Below, piece after piece: positions 42,672 to 49,080 of a stretch of DNA of 64,000 bases (positions within the stretch are counted from its first letter, which is position 1; each line of letters opens with the position of its first letter). The DNA is from Sebaldella termitidis ATCC 33386 (GTDB lineage Bacteria; Fusobacteriota; Fusobacteriia; Fusobacteriales; Leptotrichiaceae). The DNA lies in the NCBI RefSeq assembly GCF_000024405.1, contig NC_013517.1, positions 1,984,001-2,048,000 on the forward strand, written 5' to 3'. A program made the position numbers and the translations under genes. The notes under the pieces are model-generated. The model was not told the origin of the DNA. It saw only the letters and a program-made list of their open reading frames with translations, and ran no database searches.

Positions 42672-42710
42672 GTTTTGTATATGTTTTCATTAAAAATCGA
42701 TATACAAAAC
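42672..42710. repeat. Perfect 11-bp inverted repeat upstream of the arg promoter
   Basis: GTTTTGTATAT and ATATACAAAAC flank a 17-base spacer, ending three bases before the -35 box of the arg leader promoter. It may be an operator for a regulator, or a weak terminator for the DUF488 gene, but no T tract follows directly. Confidence 0.6.
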
Positions 42711-42713
42711 ATA

Positions 42714-42742
42714 TTGATTTTTCAAAAAAAATCTGATATACT
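42714..42742 (+). promoter_or_regulatory. Promoter of the arginine operon leader
   Basis: TTGATT (42714-42719) and TATACT (42737-42742) are spaced by 17 bases with TGA before the -10 box. The predicted +1 is near 42749, 30 bases before the leader-peptide ATG and about 260 bases before argC. Confidence 0.7.
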
Positions 42743-42778
42743 TTTCATATAATAAAAAAAGAAAGAGTGGTGAGAGCA

Positions 42779-42844
42779 ATGATTAAATTTATAAGAAGGA
42801 TAAGGGAAAGAAATTTTAGAATTAAATACCCTTGTCATGACTAA
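42779..42844 (+). CDS. argL: Arginine-rich leader peptide of the arg operon
   Basis: An ATG behind AGTGGTGAG opens a 21-codon frame. Its residues 6-14 read RRIRERNFR, with five arginine codons in nine positions (AGA and AGG); the stop codon is at 42842. No function as a protein is expected. The position, just after a promoter and before competing RNA stems and a terminator upstream of argC, is that of an attenuator leader peptide in which arginine-tRNA shortage stalls the ribosome. The name argL is my label. Confidence 0.7.
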   Translation: MIKFIRRIRERNFRIKYPCHD

Positions 42845-42977
42845 TTTAATCATTGTATATATAGATAGATAATAATGTTAGTCAATGGCCTTCAAGCTGT
42901 TGACTTTTATTATAAATGCTAGATGAAGTAAATATATGCGGAATCTTATGATGAATTGTCATAAGGTTCCTTTTTTT
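42838..42977 (+). promoter_or_regulatory. Putative arginine attenuator: competing RNA stems and terminator
   Basis: By eye, four pairings are possible. (1) TGACTAA (42838-42844, covering the leader stop codon) with TTAGTCA (42878-42884). (2) AGTCAATGGC (42880-42889) with GCTGTTGACT (42896-42905), which excludes (1). (3) TTTATTATAA (42906-42915) with TTATGATGAA (42946-42955), which would break the terminator. (4) the terminator GGAATCTTATGA (42940-42951) with TCATAAGGTTCC (42959-42970), followed by seven T. This is the layout of a ribosome-controlled attenuator. The stabilities were not computed. Confidence 0.65.
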
Positions 42978-43009: not shown

Positions 43010-44047
43010 ATGATAAAAGTAGGACTGGTAGGAGCTACAGGATATGCTGGACAGCAGCTTTTGTGGATTCTGAACATGCATAAGGAAACAGAAATAAAAT
43101 TTATATCTTCAAACAGCTATGAAGGAAAGGAAATCTCAGAGGTATACGGGAATTATAAAAAATATTTCGACAAAAAGCTGATATCACAGGAGGAGGCGGG
43201 AACAAAATTAGATGAAATAGATGTTCTGTTTATGGCTCTTCCGCACGGGATGTCTGAAAAGCTTGCAGGACAGGCATTGAAATCAGGTGTAAAGGTAATA
43301 GACCTTGGGGCGGATTTCCGTCTTGATGATTCTGAAACATATGAGAAATGGTACAAAGTAAAGCATGAAAACCCTGAAATAAACAAACAGGCAGTTTACG
43401 GACTTCCCGAGCTTTACAGGGAAAAAATAAAGGAAAGCAGCATAGTAGCAGCACCGGGATGTTATCCCACATCGGCAATACTTGCAGCGGCACCCTTATT
43501 AAAGAAAAATCTGGTAAAAACTGAAAATATAATTGTTGATTCCAAGTCTGGAGTTTCGGGAGCAGGCAGAGGTCTAAAAACAGAATCGCTTTTTACAGAG
43601 GTAAATGAAAACTTTAAGGCATATAATCTGTTTATGCACAGACATACCCCCGAAATAGAACAGGAGATGGGAAAAGCGGCAGGGAAAGAAGCAGGAGTGA
43701 TATTTACCCCTCATCTGCTTCCGATAAACAGAGGAATACTTTCTACGCTCTATCTGGATATGACAGAGGAAATAACTGAGGAAGAAATTTATAAAATATA
43801 TGAGGAGTTTTATAAAGATGATTATTTTGTGAGAATAAGCAGAGAGCTTCCCGAGATAAAAAATATAAAAAATACAAATATCTGTGAGATCGGAATAAGA
43901 GCGGATATAAAGAAGAAGAAAATCATAGTGGTATCTGTAATAGATAATCTTATAAAAGGTGCAGGAGGTCAGGCCGTACAGGCTATGAACATAATGTTCG
44001 GACTTCCCGAAACAGAAGGACTTGATTATCTGTCTATGTATGTATAA
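43010..44047 (+). CDS. argC: N-acetyl-gamma-glutamyl-phosphate reductase
   Basis: The 345-aa NADPH-dependent reductase has an N-terminal Rossmann motif VGATGYAGQQLL and the catalytic Cys in AAPGCYPTSAILA, plus HRHTPEIEQE in the C-terminal domain. It makes N-acetylglutamate semialdehyde, the third step of arginine synthesis. It has an excellent AGGAGG ribosome site, begins 33 bases after the attenuator T tract, and heads the cluster argC-GNAT-argJ-argB-argD-argF. Confidence 0.97.
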   Translation: MIKVGLVGATGYAGQQLLWILNMHKETEIKFISSNSYEGKEISEVYGNYKKYFDKKLISQEEAGTKLDEIDVLFMALPHGMSEKLAGQALKSGVKVIDLGADFRLDDSETYEKWYKVKHENPEINKQAVYGLPELYREKIKESSIVAAPGCYPTSAILAAAPLLKKNLVKTENIIVDSKSGVSGAGRGLKTESLFTEVNENFKAYNLFMHRHTPEIEQEMGKAAGKEAGVIFTPHLLPINRGILSTLYLDMTEEITEEEIYKIYEEFYKDDYFVRISRELPEIKNIKNTNICEIGIRADIKKKKIIVVSVIDNLIKGAGGQAVQAMNIMFGLPETEGLDYLSMYV

Positions 44048-44073: not shown

Positions 44074-44571
44074 ATGATTAGAAGTGTAAGATTGAGCGAT
44101 GCTGAGGCAATAGCAAAAATATATAATTATTATGTAAAAGAAACAACAGTTACATTTGAAACAGAGGAAATAGACATAACGGAAATGGAAAAAAGAATAA
44201 AGAAAACGCTGGAATACGGCTATCCTTTTATTGTTCATGAAGAGGAGGGAATTGTAACAGGTTATGCCTATGTAAGAAAATGGAGAGAAAGAATATCCTA
44301 TAATAATACTTTGGAAACAAGCATATATGTGGATAAGGACAAAAAAACAAAAGGTACGGGAAAAAAACTGTATAATTCATTAATAGAAAAGTGTAAAAAA
44401 TCAGGCGTGCATGTATTAATAGGAGTTTTATCCCATACAAATACAGCAAGCAAAAAGCTCCATAAAAATACGGGATTTGAGAAAACAGGACATTTTAAAG
44501 AGGCGGCAAATAAATTCGGGAAGTTTATAGATGTAGAATTCTGGTCTTTGATATTAAAGGCAGCAGGATAG
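44074..44571 (+). CDS. GNAT acetyltransferase, PAT/YncA-like, inside the arg operon
   Basis: The 165-aa protein has the GNAT fold with IRSVRLSDAEAIAKIYNYYV at the N terminus, ETSIYVDKDKKTKGTGKKLY (acetyl-CoA loop) and FEKTGHFKEAANKFGKFIDV near the end, as in phosphinothricin and methionine-sulfoximine acetyltransferases. It is closely related to the product of 61806-62303. Its place between argC and argJ suggests work on an amino acid or on acetylglutamate, but this is inference. The gaps are 26 and 48 bases. Confidence 0.9.
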   Translation: MIRSVRLSDAEAIAKIYNYYVKETTVTFETEEIDITEMEKRIKKTLEYGYPFIVHEEEGIVTGYAYVRKWRERISYNNTLETSIYVDKDKKTKGTGKKLYNSLIEKCKKSGVHVLIGVLSHTNTASKKLHKNTGFEKTGHFKEAANKFGKFIDVEFWSLILKAAG

Positions 44572-44619: not shown

Positions 44620-45840
44620 ATGAATGTAATTAAGAACGGGACAATTACAGATGTAAAAGGTTTCAAAGCTGCGGGAATAACCGCCGGTCTGAAAAAAAGC
44701 GGGAAAAAAGATCTGGCATTAATCTATAGTGAATATAAAGCTGTATCTGCTGCCGTATTTACAAAAAATCTGGTAAAAGCAGCTCCGATACTGGTAGATA
44801 TGGAAAATATAAAATCGGAAAATACTCAGGCAATTATAGTAAACAGCGGGAATGCCAATGCATGTACAGGGGAAGACGGCTATAAAAATGCAAAGAAAAT
44901 GACAGAAATAATAGCAGAAAAGCTAAACCTGCATCCGACAGAGGTTTTGGTAGAGTCTACCGGAATTATTGGTGTTCAGATGGATATGGAAAAAGTAGCT
45001 TCCGGTCTTGAAAAAATAGTACCAGAGCTTAGTGAAGAAGGAGGACATAATGCAGGAGAAGCAATAATGACTACAGATACATTCCCTAAGAATTTAGCCG
45101 TAAAGATAGAAATCGGCGGTAAAGAAGTGACAATAGCCGGAATAGCCAAGGGATCAGGAATGATACATCCTGATATGGCAACGATGCTTGCATTTCTCGT
45201 AACAGATATAAGTATTGATAAAAAACTGCTTCAGAAAGTATTTTCAAAAAGTACTGATGATTCATATAATATGGTTTCCGTGGACGGAGATACCAGCACT
45301 AATGATATGGCGGGAATACTGGCAAACGGTGCAGCCGGCAATACAAAGATAACTGATGAAAACAGTGAGGAATTTAAGATTTTTAAAGAGGCTCTGAATT
45401 TTGTCAATAAAGAGCTTGCGAAGTCCATAGCAAAAGACGGTGAAGGAGCTACAAAGCTTATAGAGGTAACAACAAAAAATGCCAGAACAATGGAAGATGC
45501 AAAAAAAGTATCAAAATCTGTTATTACTTCAAGTCTTTTTAAAGCAGCGGTATTCGGCTCAGATGCGAATTGGGGAAGAATATTATGCGCCGTGGGATAT
45601 TCAGGAGCAGAGCTGATTGTGGATAAAATTGAGATATTTATAAAAGGTGAGGATAAAATAATTCAGGTAGCGAAAAACGGAATGGGTATAGACTTTGGCG
45701 AGGAAGAAGTAGAAAAAATACTGAAAGAAGAAAAGGTAGGGGTTATTGTCAATCTGAATGACGGGAATTATGATGCGACAGCCTGGGGCTGCGATCTGAC
45801 TTATGACTATGTAAAGATAAATGCAGATTACAGAACATAA
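44620..45840 (+). CDS. argJ: Bifunctional ornithine acetyltransferase / N-acetylglutamate synthase
   Basis: The 406-aa protein has the ArgJ signatures: VNSGNANACTGEDG near residue 70, EAIMTTDTFPK, and the self-cleavage motif KGSGMIHPDMATMLAFL, where cleavage before Thr makes the alpha and beta chains. It moves the acetyl group from acetylornithine to glutamate and, in bifunctional forms, also makes acetylglutamate from acetyl-CoA. The absence of argA nearby fits a bifunctional ArgJ. Confidence 0.97.
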   Translation: MNVIKNGTITDVKGFKAAGITAGLKKSGKKDLALIYSEYKAVSAAVFTKNLVKAAPILVDMENIKSENTQAIIVNSGNANACTGEDGYKNAKKMTEIIAEKLNLHPTEVLVESTGIIGVQMDMEKVASGLEKIVPELSEEGGHNAGEAIMTTDTFPKNLAVKIEIGGKEVTIAGIAKGSGMIHPDMATMLAFLVTDISIDKKLLQKVFSKSTDDSYNMVSVDGDTSTNDMAGILANGAAGNTKITDENSEEFKIFKEALNFVNKELAKSIAKDGEGATKLIEVTTKNARTMEDAKKVSKSVITSSLFKAAVFGSDANWGRILCAVGYSGAELIVDKIEIFIKGEDKIIQVAKNGMGIDFGEEEVEKILKEEKVGVIVNLNDGNYDATAWGCDLTYDYVKINADYRT

Positions 45841-45941
45841 AAAAATTTATGACTAAAAAGAGTTTTACAGTAATTAAAAACTGTTCCTGTTTGTCAGCAG
45901 ATATAAACAGGTCACTACAAAAAACTAAAAAAGGAGAAAAA

Positions 45942-46817
45942 ATGTTAAACAATCATGAGAAAGCAGATACACTTGTAGAAGCTCTGCCGTTTATACGGAA
46001 ATATTACGGGAAAACTGTGGTAATAAAATACGGCGGAAGTGCAATGGCAGATGAGGAAATAAGAGAGGAATTTATAAAAGACGTTGTGCTTATGAAGTAT
46101 GTAGGGATAAATCCTGTTATTATCCACGGCGGAGGTCCTGAAATAAATCTTATGCTGAAAAAACTCGGGAAAGAAACAGAGTTTGTGGAAGGGAACAGAG
46201 TAAGTGACACTGAAACAGTAGAAGTCGCAGAGATGATACTTTCTGCAAAGCTGAATAAGGGTATAGTAGCAGATATTAATAAGCACGGCGGGAAAGCTGT
46301 GGGCTTAAGCGGAAAAGACGGAAATCTTATATTGGCCAAGAAAAAATATATAGAAAAGGATAATCAGAAACTGGATATAGGCTTTGTCGGCGAGGTAGTA
46401 AAAATAAATCCTGAGATAATAGAGATACTCGCGGAAAAAGATTATATTCCTGTGATATCATCAATAGGACAGGATCTTGAAGGAAATACCTATAATATAA
46501 ATGCAGATTATGTAGCAGGCGAGATAGCCGGAGTACTTAATGCATTCAGACTCCTGTTTCTTACAGATGTGGACGGAATACTGACTGATCATAATGATAA
46601 GGCAACCCTGATTCCTGAAATAAGCAGTTCAGAAGTGATAAAGCTCATAAATGACGGCATTATAACCGGAGGAATGCTTCCTAAGGTAAATACATGTCTA
46701 AATGCTGTCAATAAGGGTGTAAAAAATGTTATAATACTAAATGGAAAAGTAAAGCATTCGATACTTTTGGAATTGTTTACCTATGAAGGATTCGGTACCA
46801 TGATAAAAAGCGACTGA
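45942..46817 (+). CDS. argB: Acetylglutamate kinase
   Basis: The 291-aa amino-acid kinase has VIKYGGSAM, VIIHGGGPEINLM, GKDGNL and, late, GGMLPKVNTCLNAV. It phosphorylates N-acetylglutamate, the committed step, often under arginine feedback. The start is ATG 45942 behind AAAAGGAG. The open frame reaches back to 45849, but that segment has no ribosome site and contains a hairpin (CCTGTTT at 45886 with AAACAGG at 45905), so the 101-base gap after argJ is probably untranslated. Confidence 0.96.
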   Translation: MLNNHEKADTLVEALPFIRKYYGKTVVIKYGGSAMADEEIREEFIKDVVLMKYVGINPVIIHGGGPEINLMLKKLGKETEFVEGNRVSDTETVEVAEMILSAKLNKGIVADINKHGGKAVGLSGKDGNLILAKKKYIEKDNQKLDIGFVGEVVKINPEIIEILAEKDYIPVISSIGQDLEGNTYNINADYVAGEIAGVLNAFRLLFLTDVDGILTDHNDKATLIPEISSSEVIKLINDGIITGGMLPKVNTCLNAVNKGVKNVIILNGKVKHSILLELFTYEGFGTMIKSD

Positions 46818-46893: not shown

Positions 46894-48057
46894 ATGTTAC
46901 TAAATGTATATAACAGGTTCAATGTAAGTTTTGTAAAAGGAAAAGGTGTGTATCTCTATGATGATCAGGGAAATGAATATCTGGACTTTGTATCGGGTAT
47001 AGCTGTAAACTGCCTTGGACATGCCCATCCTGTCATAGCAAATGCACTGAAAAAACAGGGAGAAACACTTATTCATATATCAAACCTGTATCACAGCAAT
47101 GCTCAGACAAAGCTGGTAGATAAGTTAACAGGTTTGAGCGAGCATGAAAGAGTATTTTTCAGCAACAGCGGAACAGAAGCTATAGAGCTGGCAATAAAAA
47201 TAGCGAGAAAATATGGAAATAATATAGATAAAAATAAAACAGAAATAATATATATGAAAGATTCATTTCATGGGAGAAGTACCGGTTCACTTGCGATTAC
47301 AGGTCAGAAAAAATATCAGGAGCCTTTTGAACCGCTTATGCCTAATGTGACGGAATGCTTATTTAATAATATAGAAGACCTGAAATCAAAGGTAAATCAG
47401 AATACATGCGCGGTAATACTGGAGCCTGTTCAGGGAGAAAGCGGGATACAGACAGCAAGTCCGGAATTTTTGAAAGCTCTGAAAGAACTTTGCAGTGAAA
47501 ATAATGCTCTTTTGATATTTGACGAAATACAGTGCGGAATGGGAAGAATGGGAACATTATTTGCATATGAACAGCTGGGTGTAGTACCTGATATTGTGAC
47601 TATAGCAAAGGCACTCGGAGGAGGAGTACCTATAGGTGCATGTCTGACTAAGGGGAAAGCTAATGATGTAATGGTTCCCGGGGATCATGGCTCTACATAC
47701 GGAGGAAATCCTCTGGTATGTGCAGTCGCATATGATGTTCTTACAGAGCTCGTGGATAACAAGGTTATCGCTGGAGTAAAGGCAAAAGGGGAATATGCTA
47801 TAGAAAAGCTTAATAAATTAAAAGAAAAATATAAGCTGATAGAGGAAATAAGAGGAACAGGTCTTCTGATAGGTATAAAACTGGATGAAAGTGTGGCAGC
47901 AAGAGATTTTGCAAATACTGCATTTGAAAATAAATTCCTTCTTGTACCCGCAGGAAATAATGTTTTGAGATACTTTCCGCCGTTAAATGTAACTTTGGAA
48001 GAAATAGATAAATCTATAGAAAAAATGGAAGAAATATTGAATATATTTGAAAAATAA
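46894..48057 (+). CDS. argD: Acetylornithine aminotransferase
   Basis: The 387-aa PLP-dependent enzyme shows NSGTEAIELAIKIARK, FHGRSTGSLAITGQKKYQ, LLIFDEIQCGMGRMG and the PLP Lys in VTIAKALGGGVPIGA. It converts acetylglutamate semialdehyde to acetylornithine. It has an AAGGAGG ribosome site and follows argB by 76 bases, with argF 27 bases downstream. Confidence 0.96.
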   Translation: MLLNVYNRFNVSFVKGKGVYLYDDQGNEYLDFVSGIAVNCLGHAHPVIANALKKQGETLIHISNLYHSNAQTKLVDKLTGLSEHERVFFSNSGTEAIELAIKIARKYGNNIDKNKTEIIYMKDSFHGRSTGSLAITGQKKYQEPFEPLMPNVTECLFNNIEDLKSKVNQNTCAVILEPVQGESGIQTASPEFLKALKELCSENNALLIFDEIQCGMGRMGTLFAYEQLGVVPDIVTIAKALGGGVPIGACLTKGKANDVMVPGDHGSTYGGNPLVCAVAYDVLTELVDNKVIAGVKAKGEYAIEKLNKLKEKYKLIEEIRGTGLLIGIKLDESVAARDFANTAFENKFLLVPAGNNVLRYFPPLNVTLEEIDKSIEKMEEILNIFEK

Positions 48058-48084: not shown

Positions 48085-49080
48085 ATGCTGAAAAAAAAGT
48101 CATTTTTAAAACTGCTGGATTTTACAAAAGAGGAATTGGAGTTTCTTTTGAATCTGTCAAAAAAACTAAAAGAAGATAAGAAGAATAACGCCGAAATGAA
48201 AAAACTGAGCGGGAAAAATATAGCGCTGATATTTGAAAAGACATCTACAAGAACAAGATGTGCATTTGAAGTAGCGGCTTTTGATCAGGGAGCAAATGTA
48301 ACTTATATAGGACCTTCTACATCACAGATAGGTGATAAAGAATCTATAGAGGATACTGCAAGAGTGCTGGGCAGATTTTATGACGGTCTGGAATACAGAG
48401 GGTACGGACAGGAAATAGTCGAGACACTGGCTGAATATGCGGGTGTACCTGTGTGGAACGGTCTGACTACAGAATCGCATCCTACACAGGTGCTGGCAGA
48501 TTTTATGACTATACTTGAACATAAGGGAGATCTTTCAGGAATAAAATTCGCATTTATGGGAGACGGAAGAAATAATGTGGCAAATTCTCTGATGATAGGA
48601 GCGGCAAAATTCGGAATGGATTTTAGAATTGTAGCGCCAAAAGAGCTTTTTCCAAATGAAGAGCTGGTAAAAAAAGCCAAGGAGCTGGCTGCCGAATCTG
48701 GTGGAAAAATAACACTTACGGAGAATCCAGCAGAAGGAGTAGATGACTGTGATGTCATATATACTGATGTATGGGTATCAATGGGAGAAGATGAGAGTAT
48801 ATGGAAAAACAGAATCGAGCAGTTAAAGCCGTATCAGGTAAACAGTACTCTTGTAAAAAATGCAAAGCCTGATTATTTATTTATGCATTGTCTTCCAGCT
48901 TTTCATGATCTGAAAACAAAAACTGGCGAAAAAATGCATGAGAAATTTGGAATTACAGAAATGGAAGTTACAGATGAGGTTTTTGAAAGTGAAAATTCTG
49001 TTGTTTTTGATGAGGCGGAAAACAGAATGCATACCATAAAAGCTGTTATGGTAGCAACTCTTGGAGAAATAAATATCTAA
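48085..49080 (+). CDS. argF: Ornithine carbamoyltransferase
   Basis: The 331-aa enzyme carries the carbamoyl-phosphate motif [12 protein letters not shown], the [11 protein letters not shown] motif, DVWVSMGED and the ornithine-binding HCLPAFHD. It makes citrulline from ornithine and carbamoyl phosphate. It could act in synthesis or in the reverse arginine-deiminase route. Its place at the end of the argCJBD cluster argues for synthesis. argG and argH are not in the window. A strong terminator follows. Confidence 0.97.

Follow-up and report, generated by a model that had tools for sequence, protein, structure and literature searches.

We analyzed a 64-kb stretch (hereafter the window) from the 4.49-Mb genome of a bacterium of the genus Sebaldella. 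It carries an arginine biosynthesis operon that begins with argC and is preceded by a structured leader (Table 1). Since argC, argJ, argB, argD, and argF are all found in the operon, arginine precursors can be made up to citrulline. A gene for a GNAT acetyltransferase of the ArsN1/phosphinothricin type sits between argC and argJ, inside the operon. The argG gene of Sebaldella is not part of it and lies elsewhere in the genome.

The leader contains a short ORF with Arg at codons 6, 7, 9, 11, and 14 (AGA AGG AGG AGA AGA). Among the 78 short ORFs of the window that are preceded by a Shine-Dalgarno (SD) sequence, this was the single case of five Arg in nine codons. Because it is the lone case and is also conserved in all argC-bearing relatives, its Arg richness is not due to chance; the ORF had been picked out in an earlier, sequence-only reading of this DNA and is well founded. 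That reading had also placed a promoter upstream. The site TTGATT-17-TATACT is indeed present, and relatives' leaders have similar -35/extended -10 sites at the equivalent position (judged by eye), but by itself the match is at chance level (four promoter-like sites found vs. 4.1 expected). The -35 element is overlapped by CGATAT-N7-ATATTG, an inverted repeat that is AT-rich and imperfect (42690-42730 of the window), and comparable AT-rich repeats occur around the -35 of Leptotrichia leaders; the Sebaldella repeat might serve as an operator or as an UP element. The ribosome-binding sites of relatives' leaders are mostly stronger (AGGAGG) than that of Sebaldella.

Table 1. Features of the argC leader and downstream operon of Sebaldella (positions in the window).
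Feature	Position	Strand	Basis or remark
Promoter-like site TTGATT-17-TATACT, TG 5' of the -10	42714-42742	+	Chance-level match alone
Leader ribosome-binding region GTGGTGAGAG	42765-42776	+	Sequence
Stem 1:2, outer 5' arm, over the leader start codon	42776-42789	+	Pairs with 42843-42856; arm-swap p=0.00002
Leader ORF MIKFIRRIRERNFRIKYPCHD, 21 codons, 5 Arg in 9 codons	42779-42844	+	Sequence, conservation
Arg codon run AGA AGG ATA AGG GAA AGA AAT TTT AGA	42794-42820	+	Conservation
Stem 1:2, inner 5' arm GATAAGGG, inside the Arg codons	42799-42806	+	Pairs with 42829-42836
Stem 1:2, 3' arms CCCTTGTC (42829-42836, ORF end) and AATTTAATCATTGT	42829-42856	+	Fold
Strand 2 GTCATGACTAAT	42834-42845	+	Pairs with strand 3 (42877-42889)
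Strand 3 GTTAGTCAATGGC, overlapping the T1 5' arm	42877-42889	+	Pairing with strand 2
T1, first terminator-like hairpin, 10 bp	42880-42905	+	Fold, -11.4 kcal/mol
Strand proposed as partner of the T2 5' arm (42946-42955)	42906-42915	+	Weak, -6.6 kcal/mol
T2 terminator hairpin, 13 bp (42940-42970), and seven T (42971-42977)	42940-42977	+	Fold, -15.4 kcal/mol
argC, first gene of the operon	43010-44047	+	NCBIfam TIGR01850, 445 bits
GNAT acetyltransferase, ArsN1/PPT (phosphinothricin) type	44074-44571	+	Below family cut-offs
argJ, bifunctional	44620-45840	+	NCBIfam
argB	45849-46817	+	NCBIfam
argD	46894-48057	+	NCBIfam
argF (ornithine carbamoyltransferase)	48085-49080	+	NCBIfam

The leader RNA folds with -60.8 kcal/mol, compared with a mean of -36 for shuffled sequences (z = -6.6). 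In this fold the Arg codons and the leader start codon are paired with the end of the ORF, and the outer and inner helices (42776-42789 with 42843-42856; 42799-42806 with 42829-42836) make up a classical 1:2 stem. This key stem had been missed by the sequence-only reading, while every stem that it listed was found. Its pairing of the leader stop region with 42878-42884 was recovered as TGACTAA (42838-42844) with TTAGTCA, which extends to a 12-bp helix of strands 2 and 3 with one bulge (-12.5 kcal/mol). The hairpin it had drawn between 42880-42889 and 42896-42905 is T1, whose U tract is weak in Sebaldella (42906-42915). The terminator with seven T is T2, but its stem measures 13 bp, not the 12 bp given before. 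Two terminator-like sites were found vs. 0.1 expected. Strand 1 lies over the Arg codons, strand 2 falls within the ribosome cover at the stop codon, and strand 3 is located in the terminator arm. The locus has an ORF with an SD-like site, Arg enrichment, mutually exclusive stems, and terminators before argC, as expected of an attenuator.

To follow the leader in the family Leptotrichiaceae, we surveyed 33 genomes. Seventeen have argC, a count that excludes three partial, weak matches (E about 1e-4 to 1e-6). An Arg-containing leader ORF, each time with a start codon and a ribosome-binding site, precedes argC in all 17, and none of the 16 genomes without argC has the leader; the relatives thus bear out the Arg-rich ORF of the sequence-only reading. 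The Arg-codon core AGGATAAGGG is identical in the 17 members. The motif CCYTTRTY is found 32-45 bases 3' of this core and pairs with it as CCYUURUY. RIR is invariant in the leader peptides of the family. Some leaders have no more than two Arg codons (L016 and, in another family, L133). We also built a covariance model (R1), which holds the inner 8-bp stem only (MAFFT misaligned the outer arm) and served for finding leaders, not for claims on structure. It matched once per genome in 17/17, always before argC, at E = 2e-8 or better; in the 16 argC-less genomes nothing reached significance (E<0.01). One weak match in genome G021 was at chance level, with no arginine gene behind it. In one Leptotrichia-type locus (L006, 1266-1308) the leader ORF stops early, after MKMIRRIRDNKFT and before strand 2; close relatives have CAA.

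Co-variation was assessed by an arm-swap test, in which native partners were compared with partners exchanged among ten lineages, represented by one sequence each. The per-pair table takes its pairs from each sequence's own fold, which leaves the swap test as the fair statistic; taking one sequence per lineage was its only correction for shared ancestry. The outer arms of stem 1:2 gave -17.2 kcal/mol for native vs. -10.5 kcal/mol for swapped partners (p=0.00002). Native pairing was likewise favored for strands 2:3 (p=0.0009), for T1 and T2 (p<0.0001), and for 4:5, the T1 3' side with the T2 5' side (p=0.0006); a control pairing outside the model gave p=0.64. Two-sided exchanges in stem 1:2 were detected at -16 (G-C/U-A/A-U) and -9 (U-A/A-U) from the core. 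At the inner stem, coding and pairing constraints are inseparable within the family because its 5' side is invariant.

We then folded the RNA up to the T1 loop with a stalled ribosome placed on the first core AGG codon. Without a ribosome, the T1 5' arm paired with strand 2 at a probability of 0.00; the stalled ribosome raised this to 0.26-0.89 in 18/18 leaders. The mutual exclusion of the stems, whose arms co-vary, had been described by the sequence-only reading and was reproduced in these folds. Folding with the Arg codons blocked, a check that the reading had called for, freed strand 2 for the T1 5' arm. With the T1 3' arm complete and no stall, T1 formed at equilibrium with a probability of 0.99-1.00. 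The stall lowered this value to about 0.68 in Sebaldella and further, to 0.15-0.25, in several Leptotrichia, with hardly any change elsewhere; T1 was then still favored in many species (0.67-1.00 in several). Since T1 often wins at equilibrium despite the stall, the switch would need folding in the order of synthesis, a dependence that the argC leader shares with classical attenuators. The models support antitermination of T1 by stalling in the 18 leaders.

Two tandem terminator hairpins are found in all 18 leaders, including every leader of the family. The coupling of T1 to T2 was folded with soft constraints. In most Leptotrichia-type genomes, breaking T1 reduced the advantage of T2 by about 2-10 kcal/mol, and at L006, L007, L009, L010, and L015 the chance of T2 dropped from >0.9 to 0.05 or less. 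The relief in these genomes comes from the freed T1 3' arm, which pairs with the T2 5' arm. In Sebaldella (L001-L004) and L133, breaking T1 gave no relief; in the Sebaldella of the window T2 stayed favored. The sequence-only reading had proposed an antiterminator between 42906-42915 and 42946-42955; these strands can pair, and the equivalent pairing is well supported in Leptotrichia and relatives, but in Sebaldella it is too weak at equilibrium (-6.6 vs. -15.4 kcal/mol for T2). Relay control of T2 is thus supported by the models in Leptotrichia and relatives, not in Sebaldella.

ArgR is taken as the rule for arginine control. In other bacteria the arginine-responsive repressor ArgR/AhrC controls these arginine genes; it is a DNA-binding protein, unlike an RNA leader. 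The ArgR N-terminal domain (PF01316) was detected in 0/33 family genomes and in 3 of 98 Fusobacteriota (one above the cut-off), while 9 of 14 control genomes were positive. The Sebaldella genome also gave no match to the ArgR C-terminal domain (PF02863). The protein that ArgR regulation requires is therefore missing in Sebaldella and in the family.

The 40 tRNA matches in the Sebaldella genome include tRNA-Arg with anticodons UCU, UCG, and ACG only. Sensing by tRNA-Arg(CCU) was considered and is ruled out, as CCU is absent from the genome. Without it, tRNA-Arg(UCU) decodes both AGG and AGA. In the genomes, AGG accounts for 3-40% of the Arg codons (codon use and backgrounds were estimated on the window plus 15 stretches, each 16-20 kb long). 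Its share is higher in the leaders, with 35 of the 58 Arg codons in 16 argC leaders and 43 of the 63 in the leaders of a transporter (see below). Pairing partly forces the preference for AGG in the family; elsewhere it does not. Preference for a minor codon that shares tRNA-Arg(UCU) with AGA may be a further design feature of these leaders.

In other Fusobacteriota, argC is preceded by Arg-rich leaders that diverge in sequence: MRRYRRIRSKYNIQY (Propionigenium maris), MLRESFRGSRSYNLIFFL, MLRRNYRQKINKI, MMLLRNFRIMTKHNK, and MMFRISRTRRQI. Several argC leaders outside the family also have tandem terminators; most showed no clear antiterminator in the stall fold. The next-best match of the covariance model in the phylum was in another family (G052, L133; E = 0.006), directly before argC, and weak matches in G055, G070, and G071 lie just before transporter genes. 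Among 335 SD-preceded short ORFs of the control stretches, which were scanned without bias, four had at least 4 Arg within 9 codons. These include a Sebaldella argC leader and two ORFs from P. maris (L158, minus strand, 12172 and 10398): MLKLRSRMRRNRIQNYNSYLISIGLN, which has tandem terminators and lies before an amino-acid ABC permease/ATPase, and MRKNRMRYRKN, directly before argH-argG. Across the phylum, 24 of 30 regions (L246-L275) have an Arg-rich leader 200-420 bases upstream of the amino-acid ABC permease, among them MLRNFRIRTNNKK, MIRRFRIRTSKK, and MKFRNNRIRNLL. The same scan gave 1/30 for argH, which is mostly inside operons, and 11/265 for general upstream regions, five of which are arginine-gene or transporter leaders; the background is about 2%. 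Glutamine, cystine, and arginine systems are the transporter's best family matches, none of them reaching the cut-off; it is likely the Arg-controlled uptake system of the phylum. No convincing Arg leader was found outside Fusobacteriota among 80 ArgC relatives in other phyla. The distribution fits a phylum-wide arginine leader-peptide regulon. On balance, we lean toward the wider proposal that Fusobacteriota, nearly all of them ArgR-less, use an Arg-codon leader regulon for synthesis and transport, and that in Leptotrichia a relay of two antiterminators disarms the tandem terminators successively.

For the argC leader itself we consider it very probable, from sequence comparison and modeled folds, that it is a ribosome-mediated transcription attenuator sensing charged tRNA-Arg. 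The sequence-only reading had arrived at an Arg attenuator, which is supported by the conservation of the ORF, the co-variation, the folding with blocked Arg codons, the lack of ArgR, and like leaders before other arginine genes. RNA polymerase would make a leader of ~260 nt. With ample Arg-tRNA, the ribosome would reach the leader stop codon and cover strand 2, or leave and let stem 1:2 close; T1 and T2 would then form and transcription would stop before argC. With scarce Arg-tRNA, the ribosome would stall on the uncharged Arg codons and occupy strand 1. Strand 2 would be left to pair with strand 3 in the T1 5' arm, T1 would fail, and the polymerase would read through. In Leptotrichia and relatives the freed T1 3' arm would further pair with the T2 5' arm, and T2 would fail too. 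In an untranslated leader, stem 1:2 would close over its own start codon, with termination as the default.

Other readings of the leader were weighed against the same data. The nascent peptide (MIKFIRRIR...) might bind arginine or ornithine in the exit tunnel and arrest the ribosome, as SpeFL does with ornithine. The invariant RIR of the family would agree with this, and Salmonella orf34/speF offers a regulatory Arg-containing leader in the arginine-polyamine pathway. An arrest peptide requires a specific sequence, however, and the leader peptides diverge between genera except for the Arg codons: outside the family these are the only common feature, at variable spacing (MRRYRRIRSKYNIQY, MLRRNYRQKINKI, MKFRNNRIRNLL, MLRSLRMRNSRIQ). 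Induction by excess arginine would also have the wrong sign for a biosynthetic operon, and we regard an arrest peptide as very unlikely. It is highly improbable, too, that the Arg codons only reflect a purine-rich pairing element, AGGATAAGGG, acting untranslated as a protein-binding or constitutive terminator element. The family core is conserved as DNA, third positions included, and pairs with CCYUURUY, as such an element would. But the core differs in other families and the frame still encodes Arg, each ORF has its start codon and ribosome-binding site, and it is arginine genes, not other genes, that follow the leader. In the argC leaders Arg is the most enriched residue (4.9-fold), whereas Gly and Glu, likewise expected from purine-rich DNA, are depleted 4-8-fold.

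A riboswitch or T-box that senses arginine or uncharged tRNA directly, with the ORF incidental, would account for the strong structure of the leader, and T-boxes for tRNA-Arg occur before arg genes in some Firmicutes. No Rfam family reached its gathering score within the window, though, and the T-box core AGGGTGGNACCGCG was not found with up to three mismatches allowed. The conserved parts are the ORF, its ribosome-binding site, and the Arg codons, while the remaining stems drift with compensation, and we give direct sensing next to no credence.

Attenuation by leader peptides is classical for the his, trp, thr, leu, ilv, and phe operons of Enterobacteria and other bacteria; to our knowledge, arginine is not in the usual list. 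The proposed Fusobacteriota attenuator resembles these systems in its short ORF with many codons for the product amino acid, its alternative 1:2, 2:3, and terminator stems, and a terminator just before the first structural gene. It differs in the use of arginine, in the two tandem terminators, in the 1:2 stem over the start codon and, in Leptotrichia, in a second antiterminator pairing that links the terminators. T-boxes for tRNA-Arg respond to the charging of tRNA-Arg as well, and do so by attenuating transcription ahead of arginine genes, but they bind the tRNA directly without a leader ORF. In fungi, the arginine attenuator peptide (arg-2/CPA1 uORF) likewise ties a gene of arginine synthesis to arginine through an upstream ORF; unlike the Fusobacteriota leader, it acts in eukaryotic translation control through arginine-induced stalling of a specific peptide.

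The closest published case that we found is the Salmonella orf34/speF leader, which has two Arg codons and in which ribosome pausing at low arginine alters the downstream RNA structure (Ben-Zvi et al., 2019; PMC6386406). It controls ornithine decarboxylase via Rho, unfolding of the speF ribosome site, and RNase G decay; unlike the Fusobacteriota argC leader, it has no intrinsic terminator switch and does not serve arginine biosynthesis (PMC6386406). In our search of the open literature, no attenuator of arginine biosynthesis with an Arg leader peptide turned up. Arg leaders before argC, argG/argHG, and a transporter would explain how an ArgR-poor phylum, with many oral and gut residents, senses arginine. 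Such a regulon may provide a test case for a lineage replacing a repressor by translation-coupled RNA switches. The tandem terminators and relay of Leptotrichia, if true, would represent an unusual two-step attenuator.

Two further observations concern the arg genes of Sebaldella. The argG gene (L195, G000:C1, about 2397900; L198, L203) has its own SD-preceded leader ORF. The leader-like ORFs MRNNFRIMFSHNFIQ, MKNFFRMTRINKT, and MKKNFRIMNLDNFIQ have 1-2 Arg codons, with AGG in all, and the argG leader has a hairpin ending in T-rich DNA; it is probably a second, weaker Arg attenuator. The ArgC loci of Wohlfahrtiimonas (Gammaproteobacteria; L026-L031) have no evident Arg leader. Sebaldella ArgC is 60-64% identical to these proteins and closer to them than to clostridial ArgC, a likeness that is likely due to gene transfer.
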